Origin: Bacillota bacterium
GTDB taxonomy: Bacteria > Bacillota > UBA4882 > UBA10575
Length of the DNA: 59,290 nt
Reading direction: 5' to 3'
Assembly (NCBI GenBank): GCA_012735135.1
Contig: JAAYHY010000003.1
Span: forward strand, 1-59,290
Shown here: positions 18,570-43,218 of the stretch, in pieces
Layout: the number at the start of each line of letters is the position of its first letter
Numbering within the stretch: position 1 is the first letter of the stretch
The notes under the pieces: generated by a model
Database searches by the model: none
What the model saw: the letters and a program-made list of their open reading frames with translations, nothing else
Told to the model about the DNA's origin: nothing
Translations under genes and position numbers: made by a program

Positions 18570-18664
18570 TGGGCAAGGAGCCGGTTTCGGGAAGAAAGGG
18601 GGGGGTTATGGTTCATACTGGATAACCGCCAGCTTAGCCAAAAAGGAATAGGAGGGTAAATTTG

Positions 18665-19936
18665 ATGATGAAAAGAGTAAAAACTGGTGTTTTGGGGATT
18701 ATCCTTGGTTTAGTTCTTTTGACATCGTTGGCAGCCAGTGGGCAATCCGCAACGATTACTTTCTGGGCGATGCCCAACGCTCCGGATGAAACACATATTC
18801 CTTGGATTGAGCAGAAGGCTGCAGAATTCCAAGCAAAAACCGGCGTTAAAGTGAATTTGGAGATTGTCGGTTGGGATGTGGCTTGGCAGCGGATCTCCAC
18901 CGCGATTGTCACTGGGGAAGGCGTTGATGTTTTCCAAGTCGGAACCACTTGGAATCCGCAGTTTGCCGCGACCGGCGGACTCGAGGAGATTGACATCAAC
19001 GAGTTCGGTGGGAAAGATGCCTATATCAAAGCTAACCTTGAGTCGACAACATATAAAGGGAAATATTACGGTGTGCCCTGGTTTGCCGAGACCCGTGCCC
19101 TCTTCTATAATGTAGATATGTTCAAAAAGGCCGGGGTGCAACCGCCGAAGACCCATGATGAGCTGTACCAAGTGGCGGAGAAGCTCGTGGCGACCTTCGG
19201 TGAAGGCAGCGCCATTGCGCTGGCTGGGACCAACGCTTGGGATCTCCTGCATAACTGGTCGATTATTCTCTGGGCCAATGGGGGCAGTCTCCTAACGAAA
19301 GACAACAAGATGGCGATGTTCAACAATGAAGCCGGCGTAAAAGCCATGCAATGGTATGTGGATTTGGTCCGCAGAGGTTATGCTTCCAAGGCCTGCGCCG
19401 AATATAACCAACCGCAAGCCGATGCGGCCTTTATCAACGGTAACGTGGCCATGTGCTACATGGGGCCCTTCAATATTGCCGGTATTGAACAACAGAATCC
19501 CGGTTTGAACTATAGTGTGGTCGAACCGCCGGCCGGCCCGAAAGGAAAAGCTTCCTTCTCCGGCGGGAGCAACCTGGTTGTCCTGAAAGCCAGCCGCAAT
19601 AAGAAAGCCGCTAAAGAGTGGATCAAGTTCCTTCTCCAGTACGAGAACATGGTCGAGTACACGAAGAACCTGACCCACATGTTACCGGCCCAAGTGGAAG
19701 TCTTTGCGGATCCCTATTATGATTCCGGCGTGTGGAAGACCTTCAAGACCACTTTGGAATACTCCACCGCTTATCCGCCGCTGGCGGTCTGGGGTGACAT
19801 TGAAACCATCGTCCAAGACGAGTTCAAGAACGTGTTGGCCGAGTATGTCAATGGTACCTATAACGACAAGACCGTTGAAAAACACCTGAATGCTGCCGCC
19901 GACCGGGTCAATGAAGCCCTGAAGAAGGAGAAATAA
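18665..19936 (+). CDS. extracellular solute-binding protein family 1 (sugar), soluble periplasmic form
   Basis: Sugar-binding protein of the importer. It has a signal peptide (about residues 1-26, cleaved near SGQSA) and then the family fold (ITFWAMPNAPDETHIPWIEQ, TGEGVDVFQVGTTWNPQFAA, GNVAMCYMGPFN). There is no lipobox cysteine, so it should be a free periplasmic protein. Monoderm Firmicutes normally anchor these proteins as lipoproteins, so this agrees with a real periplasm. GGAGGG lies upstream of ATG codons at 18665 and 18668. It sits between the permeases and cellobiose phosphorylase, so a beta-glucoside disaccharide such as cellobiose is the likely ligand. Confidence 0.92.
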   Translation: MMKRVKTGVLGIILGLVLLTSLAASGQSATITFWAMPNAPDETHIPWIEQKAAEFQAKTGVKVNLEIVGWDVAWQRISTAIVTGEGVDVFQVGTTWNPQFAATGGLEEIDINEFGGKDAYIKANLESTTYKGKYYGVPWFAETRALFYNVDMFKKAGVQPPKTHDELYQVAEKLVATFGEGSAIALAGTNAWDLLHNWSIILWANGGSLLTKDNKMAMFNNEAGVKAMQWYVDLVRRGYASKACAEYNQPQADAAFINGNVAMCYMGPFNIAGIEQQNPGLNYSVVEPPAGPKGKASFSGGSNLVVLKASRNKKAAKEWIKFLLQYENMVEYTKNLTHMLPAQVEVFADPYYDSGVWKTFKTTLEYSTAYPPLAVWGDIETIVQDEFKNVLAEYVNGTYNDKTVEKHLNAAADRVNEALKKEK

Positions 19937-27268: not shown

Positions 27269-27523
27269 TTACGCTTCCTCTTGAACCGTGTTATCTTCCT
27301 CATCATAGGGGAGATTGAATTGTTCGGCGATAATATCAAGGCAATCGGCAATGACAGCGCAGATACAACCGCAGTCGACAAAGATGAATTTTCGATCGAG
27401 GGTAGCCACGAGCACATTATCGATGACGGCGACGACCTTGACCCATTCCCGGTCACCGGATTCGAGGATGAGAAGGACCTTTTCCCCTTTTAGTCTCCTT
27501 AACACATCACAGAGGTTTTCCAA
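27269..27523 (-). CDS. small conserved-looking protein, function unknown
   Basis: An 84-residue protein with an N-terminal strand-rich part (KVLLILESGDREWVKVVAVI, then LDRKFIFVDCGCICAVIADC) and an acidic tail (YDEEDNTVQEEA). The strand pattern resembles small Sm-like or DUF2642-like barrels, but I cannot assign it. The listed start is TTG 27523, which has no site at the right distance. A good AAAGGGGG lies 8 bases before an in-frame ATT at 27538, which would add five residues. Confidence 0.65.
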   Translation of the reverse strand: MENLCDVLRRLKGEKVLLILESGDREWVKVVAVIDNVLVATLDRKFIFVDCGCICAVIADCLDIIAEQFNLPYDEEDNTVQEEA

Positions 27524-27600
27524 ACGAGGCCAACTAATGGTCGTTACCCCCTTTCTGTCTTTGTAAATATTCTATGATGACCTTAAGGAGCAGTGCCGGT

Positions 27601-30600
27601 TCAAAGAGAATAAGTTTTACTTATTAATTTATAATATAAATCAATGATCTCCGGCGAGGGAGAGAGGCCCAATTCCTCCCGGAACAGGGCGGTTAAGGTT
27701 TTAAATTGCTTGTGGACGGCTTTCAGATCGCCGAGACCGGCATAGGCCTTCATTAATAAAGCATGGATCTCTTCGGAGAAGTCGGAAAGATCCAGTAAAG
27801 GACGGAGGTGAAAGATGGCTTGGGAGTGGTTCCTTTTTTCCAGGTAATAACGGCCTAGTTTAATCTGGGCGTCTATATAAAGGTGTCGCAACCGTTCCTG
27901 GAGCGGGAGGAGCCAAGGGTAATCCAGTTCGGTCAGATAATTACCCCGGTATAAGGCGGTGGCTTGTTCAAGAAAGAGAATGGTTTCCTCCAGAGTCCGG
28001 TCCGGGCGGGAAGCAGTTTGGATCAACTTTTCAAATTCAGCTTGGTCGGTTTGGTAACAACCGGGATCAAGCTGATAGCGGCCGCCTTTGTAGGTGACGA
28101 TTTTTTCCGGAAGATTGAGGGCTTGCCGTAGACGATAGAGGGTGGTATGGAAGAGGGCATCCAGGTCTTCCCCTTGGGCCTCCGGCCATAAATCATCGAT
28201 AATCTTCTCCTTGCTAATCGCCTCGCCATGATGGGCCAGATAGACCAGCAGGTGTTTGGCCTTTCTGGTCCGCCATTTGGTATCGGAAATCTCTGTTCCG
28301 TTGACAAACACGTGAAGGGCGCCTAAGGTCTGAAGCTTTATATGGCAGTCTTCTTTAAGTGCTTGGTTCCGGCCCAAAGGTTGGGGGAGTTTTGCTAAAA
28401 ATCGGGAAGCTACCTTTCGCACATCGCCCTCACTATCCTGGGCGAGAAGGAATAATCCTTTTTTTCCTTGCTCATCGCGGAGTTCGGCTAAAGGAGCGCA
28501 GACTCGTTTTCTCACTTCCGGATCAGGGTGCTTAAGTAAGGGGGTGAGAATGGAATGGGCGCGGGCGCCCGAACGGAGAATAATCCGTTGTACAAAGGAT
28601 AATTCAATATTATGTTCGATTCCGGCGCGGAGGATCGGGGCGAAGACTTCAAAACAGGTGAGGAAATTTTGAACGTAGTTGATCCGGGCCGATAAGGTTA
28701 AGGCCTTTTTGGCATAGAATTGAAATTTGCTTTGGTCGCCCTCGGCAAAATAAAGGGCGGCTAAAGCTTGGAAGGCATAGGCGAGAGCCTTGGTAAAACC
28801 CTGTTTTTCCAGGGCGGTGACGGCTTCCAACAAGATCCGTTCGCCTTCTTTGGTCTCCCCGGCTTGGTAGAGAATTAACCCGCCAACGGTCTGACAAGAA
28901 CTGTAACATAAAGAGTCCTTGATCTCATGGAAAGCCAAAGCCCGTTCGATATTGGCTTTTGCCTCAACCATCTTCCCTTGTAACCATAGGCAACGCGCGT
29001 AAAAGGCAAAGCTTAAGGCCAGATAGGTCCGTTCGCCGTTTATCTCCTGCAATAGAGAGATGGCCTTTTGGTAATTGGCTTCGGCCTCTTGGTAATAGCC
29101 AAGATTGGTTTGGACCTCTGCCAAGTGGGTATAGGCGGAGGGCAATGTATCGACCATGCCCAGCTTTTCTTTGCAGGTGACATTTTGTTTTGCAAGCTCA
29201 AGTGCCTTTTGGAGCTCGCCCCAGTCTTCATAAATCATCGACATATGATCTTGGGTATGGTAGCCGGGTAAAAAACCCTCGGGGGAGGAGTCCATGCCCT
29301 TTTTAAAATAATACATAGCTTTAATGTAATTACCTTTTAGGTAATGGACGTTACCCAGTCCTTCCAGGATATAAGGTAACAGATAATGATTGCTCCGGCT
29401 TTTCGCCTTATCCAGGGCGGAAGTCAAAAGTTCCTCCGCCTCCGTCAGGCTTCCCGTTAAGTAAAGACTGACCGCTTTTTCCATCAGCAGATCCAAACGT
29501 TGGTCATGATCTTGGGCCGGCAGGAAGGGCGCGCATTCCGTTAAAAGTTTCAGGCTTTGAAAGAACATCCCCCGGCAACGCAAGACACGGGCCTGCAGAA
29601 TTTTGGACTGGGTTAATCCTGATTTTTCTCCCATGGCCATAAATAAATCAGCGGCTTTCCGGGCTAATTTTTCGGCTGTTTCAATGTAGCCCCGGAAAAT
29701 CTCAATTTCCGCCCGGTAAAGGAGGAGCCAAGGATTGGCTTCGACCAAATCCGGGGGAAGCGATTGGATCCAATTCAGGACCGTCTGCCAACGTCCATTA
29801 TTTAAAGCAGCGCGTCCGGCCTTTACGACCATTGCGGCCATTTCCGCTTTTGCTCCGGCAGCCATAAAATAACGGAGGGCTTGTTCCCATTCTCCTTGCG
29901 AGCGTAATAAAAGGGCGGCTTGATAAGTAAAACGGGAACAATCCTCCCCTAGTTGCAGTTGGAGAAACTCACGAAAAAGTTGATGGTAACGGTAGATATT
30001 TTTTTCTGCGGACAACTGAGTAATAAACAATTGCTCCTTCATCAACCCGGAAAGGATCAGTTGCGCATCGGCGCGGCCGGTCAGTTGGGCGCATAATTCG
30101 GGTGTAAGAACTTCCAAAACAGAGGTGGTGAGGAGAAATTCCCTGGTCTCGTCCGGAAGTTGGGCCAATACTTCGGTGGCTAAATAATCAAAGAGGACTT
30201 GCTTTTCCGTACTGAAAGAACGTAGTGAAGCATGGGCTTCGATGGCGAGCCTTAAAGCGACCGGCCAACCTTCGGTGATTATATGCAAACGTTCAATTTG
30301 TGTAGGGTCGGCGGGGTTTTTTTTCAACTGTTTAATGTAGGCCGCAATTTCTTGGCGGTCAAAACGTAAATCATCCGCGCTCAGGAGGAGTATTTCCTTG
30401 CTGGCCAATAATTTGGCGGGGATAAAGGGGAGGGGCGTCCGGCTGGTCAGCAAAAGGTGGATGTTAGATGGCAAATAATGGAATAATTCTCGCATAAAAT
30501 GGATAATCACCGGGTTGGAGATGGCGTGGAAATCATCGAAGGCAATCGTTATTCCGTCGGTTTTTAAAGCCAGATGATTAATGAACATCGCAGTAAGCAA

Positions 30601-30930
30601 GCGGATCTTGGCTTTTAGCTCTCCTGCTCCATTAATGGAAAAGAGGCCCGTATCCAACCCCGGGGTTACTCGCTGTAATGCCGCCTTCAAGTATTGAAAA
30701 AAAATGATGGGGTCATTATCTTCGGGATCCACATGATACCAGACGACCGGCTTTCCTATTTTGGCGGCCAACTGCGACATATAAACGGTTTTACCATACC
30801 CGGCAGGGGCGATAAAGACAATGGCTTTTATGTAATCAAATCCGGCCGCGAGTTCATGGAGGCGAACCCGTTCAATCAATCCCGGCTGCGTCTTTGGGGG
30901 TAATATTTTCGTGATAAATTCTTCCGCCAT
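27601..30930 (-). CDS. MalT-like STAND ATPase regulator with C-terminal SARP/BTAD domain
   Basis: Large signal-integrating transcription regulator of 1109 residues. It has an N-terminal STAND ATPase with Walker A APAGYGKT (41-48) and Walker B ITIAFDDFH (127-135), a winged-helix part with LLTTSVLEVLTPELCAQLTG, a long TPR array (about 340-750), two HEAT-like repeats (KHPDPEVRKRVCAPLAEL, DSEGDVRKVASRFLAKL), an OmpR-like winged-helix DNA-binding domain (about 850-945; WRTRKAKHLLVYLAHHGEAI) and a bacterial transcriptional activation domain at the end. It thus has a MalT-type front and a SARP-type back. The ATG at 30930 is favoured over GTG 30939 by its upstream spacing. Target unknown; the second GH94 gene is a candidate. 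Confidence 0.88.
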   Translation of the reverse strand: MAEEFITKILPPKTQPGLIERVRLHELAAGFDYIKAIVFIAPAGYGKTVYMSQLAAKIGKPVVWYHVDPEDNDPIIFFQYLKAALQRVTPGLDTGLFSINGAGELKAKIRLLTAMFINHLALKTDGITIAFDDFHAISNPVIIHFMRELFHYLPSNIHLLLTSRTPLPFIPAKLLASKEILLLSADDLRFDRQEIAAYIKQLKKNPADPTQIERLHIITEGWPVALRLAIEAHASLRSFSTEKQVLFDYLATEVLAQLPDETREFLLTTSVLEVLTPELCAQLTGRADAQLILSGLMKEQLFITQLSAEKNIYRYHQLFREFLQLQLGEDCSRFTYQAALLLRSQGEWEQALRYFMAAGAKAEMAAMVVKAGRAALNNGRWQTVLNWIQSLPPDLVEANPWLLLYRAEIEIFRGYIETAEKLARKAADLFMAMGEKSGLTQSKILQARVLRCRGMFFQSLKLLTECAPFLPAQDHDQRLDLLMEKAVSLYLTGSLTEAEELLTSALDKAKSRSNHYLLPYILEGLGNVHYLKGNYIKAMYYFKKGMDSSPEGFLPGYHTQDHMSMIYEDWGELQKALELAKQNVTCKEKLGMVDTLPSAYTHLAEVQTNLGYYQEAEANYQKAISLLQEINGERTYLALSFAFYARCLWLQGKMVEAKANIERALAFHEIKDSLCYSSCQTVGGLILYQAGETKEGERILLEAVTALEKQGFTKALAYAFQALAALYFAEGDQSKFQFYAKKALTLSARINYVQNFLTCFEVFAPILRAGIEHNIELSFVQRIILRSGARAHSILTPLLKHPDPEVRKRVCAPLAELRDEQGKKGLFLLAQDSEGDVRKVASRFLAKLPQPLGRNQALKEDCHIKLQTLGALHVFVNGTEISDTKWRTRKAKHLLVYLAHHGEAISKEKIIDDLWPEAQGEDLDALFHTTLYRLRQALNLPEKIVTYKGGRYQLDPGCYQTDQAEFEKLIQTASRPDRTLEETILFLEQATALYRGNYLTELDYPWLLPLQERLRHLYIDAQIKLGRYYLEKRNHSQAIFHLRPLLDLSDFSEEIHALLMKAYAGLGDLKAVHKQFKTLTALFREELGLSPSPEIIDLYYKLISKTYSL

Positions 30931-31085
30931 TCCTACCACCCGCCTTGTTAGAGCAAATCCGATGCTGTTGGGTATTGCTGATGATCTTTTATTCGCTAAC
31001 TGCTGTCTATAAACCTTTATTTATAAAAGAGAACACCATCTTTCCAGGGAAAACATAGACTATTTTAGGAAAGGGGAGGAATGGG

Positions 31086-31741: not shown

Positions 31742-34162
31742 TTGACGGCAAAAAATAAGGAGAATGAAAGGGGGCGCATCATCATACGTTACGGTTATTT
31801 TGATGACCAAAAACGGGAGTATGTTATTTTAAATCCGGTGACACCGATGTCATGGGTTAATTATTTGGGCACAGCCGAGTATTGTGGGATTATTTCCAAT
31901 AACGCCGCCGGTTATGCCTTTTACCGGTCGGCGAAGACCGGGCGTCTGCTTCGTTTTCGCTTTAACAGTATTCCGATGGATCGCCCGGGGCGGTATGTTT
32001 ACATCAGAGATAACGCCGATGGGGATTATTGGTCGGCTTCATGGCAACCGGTGGGTAAGCCCTTGTCCGCTTATAAGAGCGTCTGCCGCCACGGTCTGGG
32101 CTATACTGTTTTTAATAGTGAATACAAAGGGATAACCACCAATTTCCGGGTTTTTGTCCCGATTGACCGGCCTATCGAACTCTGGGAAGTGGAGGTGGTT
32201 AATAACAGTCAGGAAGAAAGGGATCTTTCGCTCTTTACCTATGCCGAATGGTGTTTCTGGCTGATGGACCAGGATTTATCCAACTTCCAATATATCCTTT
32301 ACACTTGCCGGATGGGGTACCTGGAAGAAGGAATCATCGATTATTCGATCCGCCTGTGGCCGAACCGTCGGCCCCAGGGCTTTATGGCTTCGGTATTGCC
32401 GGTGGAAAGTTTTGATACGGACCGGGAGGCTTTTATCGGCCTTTACCGGCACGAAGGTAATCCGGAAGCGGTGGAAAAAGGAATTTGCGCTAATAGCTTG
32501 GCCCAAGGGGGAAATCCGTGTGCAGCTTTGCAAAACCGCTTGACCTTAAAACCCGGGGAAAAGAAATATGCCTTATATATCCTGGGTATTGGCGATGCGG
32601 CCACCTACGGGGTGGAATGTAAGCGCCTCTATGCCCGGCGGGAACAGGTCGAAGCGGAATTTAACAAACTACAGGCTTACTGGGAACAGCGTTTAGGGCA
32701 GTTTACCTGTGTAACACCTTCCAAAGAGCTTAACACGATGTTAAACATGTGGAACCAGTACCAATGCCATACCACTTTTAATTGGTCCCGTTCAGCCTCT
32801 TTTAATGAAGCCGGCGGACGGGATGGCCTTGGTTACCGGGATACCAACCAGGATACTTTAGGTGTGGTCCACGCCATTCCCGATCTGGTGCGCGCAAAAT
32901 TGATCGATCTTCTGAAGGGGCAGCTTTCCTCCGGAGCGGCGATGCATAGTGTCCAACCGTTAACTTGGGAACAAGGAGAACATAATCGACCACCGGAAAG
33001 CCAAATTTTCTCCGATGACCACCTCTGGCTTCTCCTTTCCGTCCCGGCTTACCTGAAGGAAACGGGGGATTTTACTTTCCTGGATCTGATGGTCCCTTAC
33101 GCCGATCAAGGGACGGCCAGCGTCTATGATCATCTGAAACAAGCATTAGAGTTTTCTTGGGGGAAAAGGGGTCCCCATGGTTTATTGCTAGGTTTAGCAG
33201 CGGACTGGAATGACTGTTTGAATCTGAAAGGTAAAGGAGAGAGCCTCTGGAGTACTTTCTTGTATTGTGTGGCCTTGGATGAATTTACTGCGCTTGCCAC
33301 CTACGTAGGGAAGACCGCCGATGCCAACCATTACCGGAGCTACCGGCAGGCGATCCAAGAAAAAATTCATCAGTACGCTTGGGACGGCCGGTGGTTCCTC
33401 CGCGGTTATCTCGATAGCGGTAAGAAACTGGGGGGGCAGGAAAGCGAGCAGACGAAGATCTTTTTAAACAGCCAGACGTGGGCGGTGATCGCCCGGGTGG
33501 CGGAGGAAGACCGGTTGCGGCAAGCAATGGATAGCGTGCATGAGCTTTTGGCGACCGAACACGGGATCGTGAAAAACTACCCGGCTTACCGGGAGCATAT
33601 CCTGGAAGTCGGGGCGATTACCGATTTTCCACCCGGACTAAAGGAGAACGCCGCGATTTTTTGTCATACCAATACTTGGGCGGTGATTGCCGAGGCGATG
33701 CTTGGCCGGGGGGACCGGGCTTTTGCCTACTACCTTTCCTTCTTGCCGGCGGCCAAAAATGACCAGGCCGAGGTATATACCATGGAACCCTATGTTTATT
33801 GCCAGTTTATTACCGGGAAAGAACATCCATATTATTTTGGGCGGGCCCGTAATTCCTGGCTGACCGGGACCGCGGCCTGGAGTTTTGTGGCGGTTAGCCA
33901 GTACATATTAGGGATCCGTCCGGCTTATGACGGTTTGCGGATCGACCCGGTCATTCCCCGGGATTGGGCGGGGTTTGAAGTGAAACGCCGCTTCCGTGGG
34001 AAAAACTTTACGATCAAAGTAGTCAATCCGCACCGGGTCTGCCGTGGGGTGGCGGAATTGAAACTCAACGGGGAAGTGCTTCCCGGTAACCTGATTCCCC
34101 TTGGGCGCATGCAGGAGGAAAACCTGGTCGAAGTGGTGCTGGGGGAAGAAAAGAATAGCTAG
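31742..34162 (+). CDS. GH94 glycoside phosphorylase, chitobiose phosphorylase-like
   Basis: Second GH94 enzyme, 806 residues from the TTG at 31742. It differs from the cellobiose phosphorylase at 20125: it has SFNEAGGRDGLGYRDTNQD, SDDHLWLL and YADQGTASVYDHLKQALEF, which look more like N,N'-diacetylchitobiose phosphorylase; the ADWND acid motif is intact. Substrate cannot be fixed from sequence; cellobionate or another beta-linked disaccharide is possible. Homologues start with M-K-Y-G-Y-F-D, which here lines up with ATA CGT TAC (31784), nine bases after AAAGGGGG. The TTG start lacks a proper site. Confidence 0.87.
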   Translation: MTAKNKENERGRIIIRYGYFDDQKREYVILNPVTPMSWVNYLGTAEYCGIISNNAAGYAFYRSAKTGRLLRFRFNSIPMDRPGRYVYIRDNADGDYWSASWQPVGKPLSAYKSVCRHGLGYTVFNSEYKGITTNFRVFVPIDRPIELWEVEVVNNSQEERDLSLFTYAEWCFWLMDQDLSNFQYILYTCRMGYLEEGIIDYSIRLWPNRRPQGFMASVLPVESFDTDREAFIGLYRHEGNPEAVEKGICANSLAQGGNPCAALQNRLTLKPGEKKYALYILGIGDAATYGVECKRLYARREQVEAEFNKLQAYWEQRLGQFTCVTPSKELNTMLNMWNQYQCHTTFNWSRSASFNEAGGRDGLGYRDTNQDTLGVVHAIPDLVRAKLIDLLKGQLSSGAAMHSVQPLTWEQGEHNRPPESQIFSDDHLWLLLSVPAYLKETGDFTFLDLMVPYADQGTASVYDHLKQALEFSWGKRGPHGLLLGLAADWNDCLNLKGKGESLWSTFLYCVALDEFTALATYVGKTADANHYRSYRQAIQEKIHQYAWDGRWFLRGYLDSGKKLGGQESEQTKIFLNSQTWAVIARVAEEDRLRQAMDSVHELLATEHGIVKNYPAYREHILEVGAITDFPPGLKENAAIFCHTNTWAVIAEAMLGRGDRAFAYYLSFLPAAKNDQAEVYTMEPYVYCQFITGKEHPYYFGRARNSWLTGTAAWSFVAVSQYILGIRPAYDGLRIDPVIPRDWAGFEVKRRFRGKNFTIKVVNPHRVCRGVAELKLNGEVLPGNLIPLGRMQEENLVEVVLGEEKNS

Positions 34163-41097: not shown

Positions 41098-43218
41098 GTG
41101 GGGGACGTTTTTTTCCGAAGGGAAACTGGATATAATGAAAGAGTAATTCTACCGGTTTTCACCCCTTTGGTCAATCTTGCCGGCAACCGGAGGAAAAAGT
41201 GCTTCCGTTGGCTGGACCTGAGCGGAGGGAAAGGAGGAGACATCATCCACGCCGACCTTTTTGATGAAAACTTCTTTTATGAAGGCGATGATCTCGGCGC
41301 GGCTTATACCCCCCGGCAGACCATCTTTACCGTGTGGGCGCCGACCGCCCGGGAGGTTTGTTTATATACTTACCGCCAAGGAAGAGGCGGAGAAAAGACC
41401 GTCTATCCCATGACCAGGGAAACGGGGGGCATCTGGAGGCAAGTAGTGGCCGGCGATTGCCATGGCCTCTACTATACTTATGGGGTCACCCATGATGACC
41501 GGGTCTTTGAAGTGGTCGATCCCTATGCCCGGGCGGCGGGGGTCAACGGGGACCGGGGGATGGTGGTGGATCTGGCCCGGACCAATCCGGAAGGTTGGGC
41601 GGAGGTTAAACGGCCGGTGCTGGCCGCGCCGGTCGATGCGATCATCTATGAATTACATGTCCGTGACTTTTCCATCCACCCCCAGTCGGGGATGGCGCAT
41701 AAGGGTAAATTCCTGGCCTTTACCGAAGAGGGTACCCGGGGACCACAGGGGATTAAGACCGGTCTTGACCATTTGGTCGATCTGGGGGTGACCCACCTGC
41801 ATCTCCTCCCGGTTTTCGACTTTGCCTCGGTCGACGAGGGAGAAGGGAATGCCCCCCAGTATAACTGGGGTTATGATCCAAAAAACTATAATCTGCCGGA
41901 AGGGTCCTACGCCACCGACCCTTTCCAGGGTGAAGTCCGCATCCGGGAACTGAAAGCAGCGATTAAAGCCCTGCATGAAAAGGGGATCGGCGTGATCATG
42001 GATGTGGTCTATAACCATACCTTTAATTCCTGGGATTCGGCGTTGAACCGCCTGGTTCCCGGCTACTATTACCGGCTGAATCCGGACCGCAGTTTTGCCA
42101 ATGGTTCGGGTTGTGGCAATGAGCTTGCCACCGAACGGCCGATGGTCCGGAAACTAATCATTGATTCGGTTGTCTACTGGGCCACCGAGTACCGGGTGGA
42201 CGGGTTCCGTTTTGACCTGATGGGCCTCCTGGATCTGGAGACGATGCGGCGGATCCGGGCGGCTTTGGACCGGATCTGCCCGGGACTTTTGCTCTACGGG
42301 GAAGGCTGGACGGGTGGCCCGTCCCCGCTGCCGGGAGACCAAGCGGCCTTGAAGGGTAATGCCCGTTCTCTGCCGGGGATTGCTTTTTTTAACGATTCGG
42401 CGCGGGACGGCATCAAGGGGCATGTTTTTAACCAGGCGGAAGCGGGCTTTGTCAATGGGAAGGCCGGGATGGAGGAGAGCGTTAAATTCGGAATTGTGGC
42501 AGCCACTTACCATCCGGGGCTTTGCTACGAACGGGTGAACTACGACCATGCGCCCTGGGCCGGGGAACCGGGCCAGGCCGTGAATTACTGTGAAGCCCAT
42601 GATAACCTGACCCTCTGGGATAAACTGTTGATCACCAATGGGGACGAAAGCGAAGAACAGCGGATCAGAAGGCATAAGTTGGGTGGCGCCATTGTCTTGA
42701 CCAGTCAAGGGATTCCCTTTCTCCATGCCGGTCAGGATTTTCTCCGGACCAAAGGGGGGAACGCCAACAGTTATCTGGCCCCGGATGCCGTCAATCAACT
42801 GGATTGGACCCGGAAAGCCCGTTACCATGAGGTCTATGCTTATTACCGGGGGTTAATTGCGCTGCGCAAAGCCCATCCGGCTTTCCGGTTACGGACATCT
42901 GAACAGATCCAAACCCATCTTCATTTTCTGGATTTACCCGCCCAGCTGATCGGGTACACCTTAGGCGACCATGCCAACGGGGACTCCTGGCGGATGATTG
43001 TGGTTCTTTTTAATGCCCGGACGACCCCGGCGCCGGTGGCGCTGCCCGGCGAGGACTGGGTGGTGGTGGTTGACCGGCAGCACGCCGGTACGGAAGCCTT
43101 GGGTTATGTCAGGGGGCCGGAGGTGGCGGTGGAACCCCTCAGTGCTTTGATTTTGGTGGACCGGGCCAGCTTTAAGGAGGGCGCCCTACCCAAGCCCACT
43201 GAGGCATGTGAAAGGTAG
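41098..43218 (+). CDS. pulA: type I pullulanase (GH13)
   Basis: Debranching enzyme cutting alpha-1,6 links in pullulan, glycogen or limit dextrins. It has a CBM48-like part (TIFTVWAPTAREVCLYTY), the type I signature YNWGYDPKNY, and the GH13 catalytic residues in GFRFDLMG (Asp nucleophile), LLLYGEGW (Glu acid/base) and EAHDNLTLWD (Asp). It lacks a signal peptide, so it acts in the cytoplasm. The only canonical start (GTG 41098) has no site and precedes a TATAAT. The best site, AAAGGAGG (41230), is followed by ATC ATC (41242, 41245), where homologues begin; that form has 657-658 residues. It fits with the GH57 branching enzyme nearby. Confidence 0.9.
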   Translation: MGDVFFRRETGYNERVILPVFTPLVNLAGNRRKKCFRWLDLSGGKGGDIIHADLFDENFFYEGDDLGAAYTPRQTIFTVWAPTAREVCLYTYRQGRGGEKTVYPMTRETGGIWRQVVAGDCHGLYYTYGVTHDDRVFEVVDPYARAAGVNGDRGMVVDLARTNPEGWAEVKRPVLAAPVDAIIYELHVRDFSIHPQSGMAHKGKFLAFTEEGTRGPQGIKTGLDHLVDLGVTHLHLLPVFDFASVDEGEGNAPQYNWGYDPKNYNLPEGSYATDPFQGEVRIRELKAAIKALHEKGIGVIMDVVYNHTFNSWDSALNRLVPGYYYRLNPDRSFANGSGCGNELATERPMVRKLIIDSVVYWATEYRVDGFRFDLMGLLDLETMRRIRAALDRICPGLLLYGEGWTGGPSPLPGDQAALKGNARSLPGIAFFNDSARDGIKGHVFNQAEAGFVNGKAGMEESVKFGIVAATYHPGLCYERVNYDHAPWAGEPGQAVNYCEAHDNLTLWDKLLITNGDESEEQRIRRHKLGGAIVLTSQGIPFLHAGQDFLRTKGGNANSYLAPDAVNQLDWTRKARYHEVYAYYRGLIALRKAHPAFRLRTSEQIQTHLHFLDLPAQLIGYTLGDHANGDSWRMIVVLFNARTTPAPVALPGEDWVVVVDRQHAGTEALGYVRGPEVAVEPLSALILVDRASFKEGALPKPTEACER
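41131..41136 (+). promoter_or_regulatory. -10 box within the 5' part of the pullulanase frame
   Basis: TATAAT about 110 bases before the Shine-Dalgarno at 41230; the -35 region (TTTTTT) is poor. If used, translation cannot begin at the GTG at 41098. Confidence 0.4.

Follow-up and report, generated by a model that had tools for sequence, protein, structure and literature searches.

In the genome of an uncultured bacterium of the phylum Bacillota (designated G000), a gene encoding a predicted GH94 phosphorylase is very probably translated from an AUA codon at position 31784, or from the preceding AUC at 31781, by the ordinary initiator tRNA with the anticodon CAU. Initiation at such a codon would be weak and IF3-sensitive and would be rescued by a strong Shine-Dalgarno (SD) sequence. 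The gene is located in the window, that is, the whole stretch of 59,290 nucleotides that was analyzed. Positions 18662-48444 of the window contain a carbohydrate cluster with two GH94 phosphorylases, a pullulanase, a GH57 branching enzyme and a solute-binding protein (18662-19936). In the following, AUH designates the codons AUU, AUC and AUA.

The SD sequence AAAGGGGG of the GH94 gene is followed by the 9-base spacer CGCATCATC and then, from 31784, by ATA CGT TAC GGT TAT TTT GAT GAC, exactly as the original prediction described it. The prediction further stated that a canonical start codon is lacking at a usable distance, which the reading frame bears out: no in-frame AUG, GUG or UUG lies within usable distance of the SD. 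An upstream stop occurs at -16 codons, and the sole canonical codon between the stop and the ATA is TTG 31742, which has no proper SD. Downstream of the ATA, canonical codons reappear in frame only at +18 codons (GTG) and +22 codons (ATG 31850), where the distance from the SD is too great. A further in-frame ATC, at 31778, has a spacing of only 3. A survey of the distances between SD and start codon, proposed along with the prediction, yielded a genome optimum of 7-8 nt, with the GH94 candidates at 6-9; the spacings of both ATC 31781 and ATA 31784 are inside the range used by the genome. A check for hairpins in the ribosome-binding site of the GH94 start revealed nothing notable, and a search of the window for riboswitches and other known RNAs gave no Rfam match. 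Since neither the GH94 gene nor the pullulanase gene is closely preceded by a gene on the same strand, initiation at both is uncoupled from upstream translation.

The GH94 product matches PF17167 and PF06165 far above the cut-off and contains the catalytic and supersandwich domains at full length. Homologues were searched for in 41 genomes, from the same genus out to the same phylum, and their 5' ends were aligned. The codon opposite ATA 31784 is ATG, GTG or TTG in all GH94 homologues compared except two, which have GGC at this site and carry an ATG three or four codons before it. The homologues place the start exactly at ATA 31784, in support of the predicted AUA (or AUC) start, and the extension upstream of it is not conserved. 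In the closest relative, G006, whose protein is 91% identical, the sequence reads AAAAGGGGGCG-TTTA-ATG-ATG-CGT, compared with GAAAGGGGGCG-CATC-ATC-ATA-CGT in G000; the ATG ATG of G006 corresponds to ATC ATA in the window, each codon differing at the third base only. Homology favors ATA 31784 over ATC 31781. The latter may nevertheless serve as the start, given that its spacing, like that of the ATA, falls within the genome range and that G006 carries an ATG at either site. The gene is under purifying selection, with a dN/dS of 0.06-0.065, and the G000 branch is not accelerated (10 vs 20 unique residues).

Table 1. Coordinates in the window of the three genes with putative AUH starts and of their initiation signals
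Feature	Position	Strand	Basis
GH94 phosphorylase coding sequence, 792 codons	31784..34162	+	Pfam; dN/dS
GH94 Shine-Dalgarno AAAGGGGG	31767..31774	+	strong pairing with the 16S 3' end; retained in relatives
ATA, likeliest GH94 start codon	31784..31786	+	spacing 9; ATG/GTG/TTG aligned in nearly all relatives
ATC, alternative GH94 start codon	31781..31783	+	spacing 6; ATG in G006
TTG-initiated extension, L/M-TAKNKENERGRII	31742..31783	+	rejected as coding
Pullulanase Shine-Dalgarno AAAGGAGG	41230..41237	+	sequence; G-rich
Pullulanase ATC, putative start (second of ATC ATC)	41245..41247	+	ATC/ATA/ATG interchange in eight congeners
Pullulanase-type GH13 coding sequence	41245..43218	+	Pfam; dN/dS 0.09-0.12
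Small-gene Shine-Dalgarno AGAAAGGGGG	27547..27556	-	8 nt before ATT
Small-gene ATT, putative start	27536..27538	-	ATT/ATA/ATG interchange in six congeners
Conserved small gene, 89 codons, function not assigned	27269..27538	-	conservation; no Pfam match

Two companion genes in the window make stronger cases than GH94. The original prediction attributed the same arrangement to the gene at 27538, with ATT, and to the pullulanase gene at 41242, with ATC, and in both genes AUG and AUH are indeed exchanged at a fixed position. For the pullulanase the position had to be corrected: ATC ATC is present at 41242 and 41245, and the homologues identify the second of the two as the start. The pullulanase start codon is ATC in G000, G006, G001, G002 and G007, ATA in G005, and ATG in G003 and G004; in G006, G001 and G002 the frame is devoid of ATG, GTG and TTG from the upstream stop through +30 codons. 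The start codon of the 27538 gene is ATT in G000, ATA in G007, G003 and G002, and ATG in G006 and G001. The SD is retained across species at both genes. A conserved isoleucine within a longer protein was considered and rejected, since such a residue would neither alternate with ATG nor trail a conserved SD at fixed spacing; moreover, in several species stops lie so close upstream that a longer protein would have no canonical codon to start from. In G000 the 27538 gene is preceded by a large TPR/BTAD regulator gene (27601-30939).

The frequency of AUH starts was estimated by a codon-blind scan in which start positions were ranked by coding score and SD pairing. The scan covered 836 kb of G000 including the window, 336 kb of G006, approximately 384 kb of G003 and G007 together, and approximately 356 kb from four other genera of the family. 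Most G000 genes have ATG, GTG or TTG starts. The best position was non-canonical in 29 of 646 G000 genes, 22 of them with a strong SD, and ATT, ATC or ATA accounted for 10 of these 22, compared with 6.9% expected from codon frequency (binomial p = 7e-7). The ten genes are infC, pullulanase, the 27538 gene, GH94, aspartokinase (lysC), a PfkB kinase, RecJ, UPF0047, DUF2935 and a DUF2229 activase. The G006 calls add FeoB and DUF2937, and the aspartokinase of G006 also has ATT. An ATT at L079:2054 was dropped from the set for want of an SD. Codons such as ACG, AAG, GAG and GCG that replace ATG in orthologue pairs were not counted as starts, because on inspection most of these cases could be traced to a misplaced start or had a canonical start codon only a few codons away. 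In a control scan of 249 kb of E. coli, infC (AUU) ranked first, just below the strong-SD cut-off, which no AUH call reached; the one other E. coli AUH call had a weak SD and was probably false. The genomes of the genus yielded 13 AUH calls in 1153 genes and the other genera of the family 0 in 214, a difference that is not significant (p = 0.24); short outgroup loci yielded 1 weak call in 61 genes. These counts suggest that AUH codons start about 1.5-2% of the genes of G000, the best-sampled genome, and roughly 1-2% genus-wide.

Only ATG, GTG and TTG are normally accepted as starts by gene finders, and AUH genes are therefore annotated with incorrect N-termini or with a spurious start within the SD, such as the GTG in GGAGGTG. 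AUH genes often carry an in-frame GTG within the SD (GGxGGTG), as at L038:3226, L101:18531, L042:16220 and L085:16186 (all on the minus strand), which is likely a trap for gene finders. At L069:4075 (minus strand) a gene for an XerC/D-type recombinase has an apparent CTG start behind GGGGAGGTG; the frame is closed by a stop three codons before the CTG.

The recJ genes of 11 species from four genera of the family start at ATC, ATT or ATA, and those of most outgroups at ATG. In G000 and G001 a TAG is located two codons upstream of the start. In the species with AUH starts, recJ begins before the upstream frame ends, with an overlap of 26-29 nt (L065:3789, L238-L248); this upstream frame, judging from gene order elsewhere, is presumably the tail of SecF. 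Conservation of the AUH start may thus be due in part to the overlap or to translational coupling, and since the start may be constrained or coupled in this way, selection against ATG at recJ is not claimed. A RecJ scan of GTDB contigs retrieved only two records, one of them matching the G006 contig.

Inspection of IF3, proposed along with the original prediction, revealed nothing unusual: IF3 of G000 aligns over its full length with solved bacterial IF3, its conserved sequence is neither lost nor grossly changed, and its gene, infC, itself starts at ATT. The relatives in the genus and family that use AUH starts have a single, normal CAU initiator tRNA. In the G000 draft a search for the initiator tRNA gene was negative, so that the CAU anticodon was seen in the relatives only; the draft also lacks several other tRNAs although it is rated 99% complete.

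The codon itself, its homologous position, the retained SD, purifying selection, interchange between species, IF3 and the CAU initiator of relatives, all read from the sequences, point to initiation at the AUH codon of GH94. In the most plausible model, the anticodon CAU of the fMet initiator tRNA matches the first two codon bases, A and U, and forms a mispair with the third, while the strong AAAGGGGG would keep the 30S subunit bound until some of the complexes pass the IF3 check. The AUN pattern of these starts matches the finding that in vitro non-Watson-Crick pairs are tolerated at the third codon base only (PMC10158994). From the CAU initiator of the relatives, the ordinary IF3, and the in vitro and reporter data (see below) we infer a weak, SD-assisted and IF3-sensitive initiation with methionine. 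The product would probably have the normal N-terminus fMet-Arg-Tyr-Gly..., and its synthesis would reach only part of the rate obtained with AUG and vary with the IF3 level. The same arrangement would operate genus-wide, with AUG and AUH being swapped between species at fixed positions.

Other explanations were weighed against this model. Translation from TTG 31742, the only upstream canonical in-frame codon, would place a 14-residue extension (MTAKNKENERGRII) ahead of the conserved GH94 N-terminus. It is very unlikely, as this TTG is not preceded by a proper SD at normal distance, the extension is missing from the homologues, several close relatives have in-frame stops in the matching stretch, and AAAGGGGG, at normal start spacing, would be left unexplained. 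Masking of an ATG by a base-calling or assembly error could be imagined in a draft of 161 contigs, but is exceedingly improbable: the error would have to affect ATC and ATA alike, and further genes as well as several species with independent assemblies show the pattern too.

More specific to GH94 is a possible recent loss of the ATG in a gene that is becoming silent or that is now translated solely from the internal ATG 31850. The gene is patchily distributed in the genus, every other congener that carries it has a canonical start, and the AUH start is private to one draft genome; dN/dS is insensitive to a recent loss of the start, and ATG 31850 has a moderate SD. Even so, this scenario has little probability. 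All 792 codons are intact with a dN/dS of 0.065 and without acceleration on the G000 branch, both changes preserved AT at positions 1 and 2, as in the two companion genes, and a start at 31850 would remove conserved N-terminal residues, the 21 codons before it showing only two conservative replacements relative to G006 besides the start. It is similarly improbable that initiation has changed in the lineage, through a second initiator tRNA that reads AUU, AUC and AUA or through a relaxed IF3 or ribosome, and that AUH is an ordinary start there. AUH starts are apparently commoner than in Listeria and the G000 draft yielded no initiator tRNA of its own, but an altered initiator tRNA is unlikely because the relatives with AUH starts carry the one usual CAU gene, a deviant IF3 was rejected because the alignment is normal throughout, and most genes start with ATG, GTG or TTG.

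Beyond the inferred weak initiation by the CAU initiator at GH94, it is conceivable, though rather doubtful, that the genus, and for recJ much of the family, keeps AUU, AUC and AUA as a standing, evolvable class of starts for tens of genes. Translation would then be regulated at an additional level tied to IF3, AUG and AUH would be exchanged steadily between species, and an alteration of the initiation machinery that is not visible in the draft might contribute. If AUH starts are as common as the scan suggests, they provide a natural set for testing the role of AUH, with the closely related ATG versions as built-in controls.

The AUU starts of E. coli infC and pcnB are AUH codons behind an SD that are read by the ordinary initiator tRNA. 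The G000 genes resemble them in the codon and the SD and presumably also in the initiator tRNA, and G000 infC likewise starts with ATT; however, E. coli has very few AUH genes, whereas G000 has 10 in 646 scanned genes, metabolic enzymes among them. The title of a 2002 paper cited in PMC13009471 presents pcnB as the second chromosomal example. In S. aureus, ribosome profiling and reporters proved AUA starts of infC, ccpN and citZ and an AUU start of cvfC1, and in reporters AUU and AUA starts with extended SDs gave about 10-30% of the AUG output (PMC13009471). Strong extended SD pairing and, for some genes, conservation between related species are common to S. aureus and the G000 genus, but the four S. 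aureus genes are experimentally proven. Listeria monocytogenes has fixed non-canonical starts in infC (ATT) and rnhC (ATC), and rsbW variants in which ATG is changed to ATA or ATT, with translation decreasing in the order ATG > ATA > ATT (PMC13068326). The changes of ATG at the third position are similar, and in Listeria they lower translation; unlike the rsbW variants, AUG and AUH are interchanged between species in the G000 genus. In Listeria 6 of 2265 conserved (core) genes have such starts by annotation (PMC13068326); the 10 of 646 in G000 are about six times as frequent (p = 6e-4), although the latter number is scan-based and the counting methods differ. Borrelia burgdorferi pncA, long misannotated, has an experimentally proven AUU start (PMC13398362) and, like several G000 genes, encodes a metabolic enzyme, but is a single proven gene. 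The title of a proteomic study of Deinococcus deserti, cited in PMC5552922, refers to unusual use of non-canonical initiation codons, and a high AUH rate may therefore not be unprecedented. The mechanism is thus already known from infC, pcnB, S. aureus ccpN and Listeria rnhC; what appears to be new in the genus is the frequency of AUH starts and the turnover of AUG and AUH between species.
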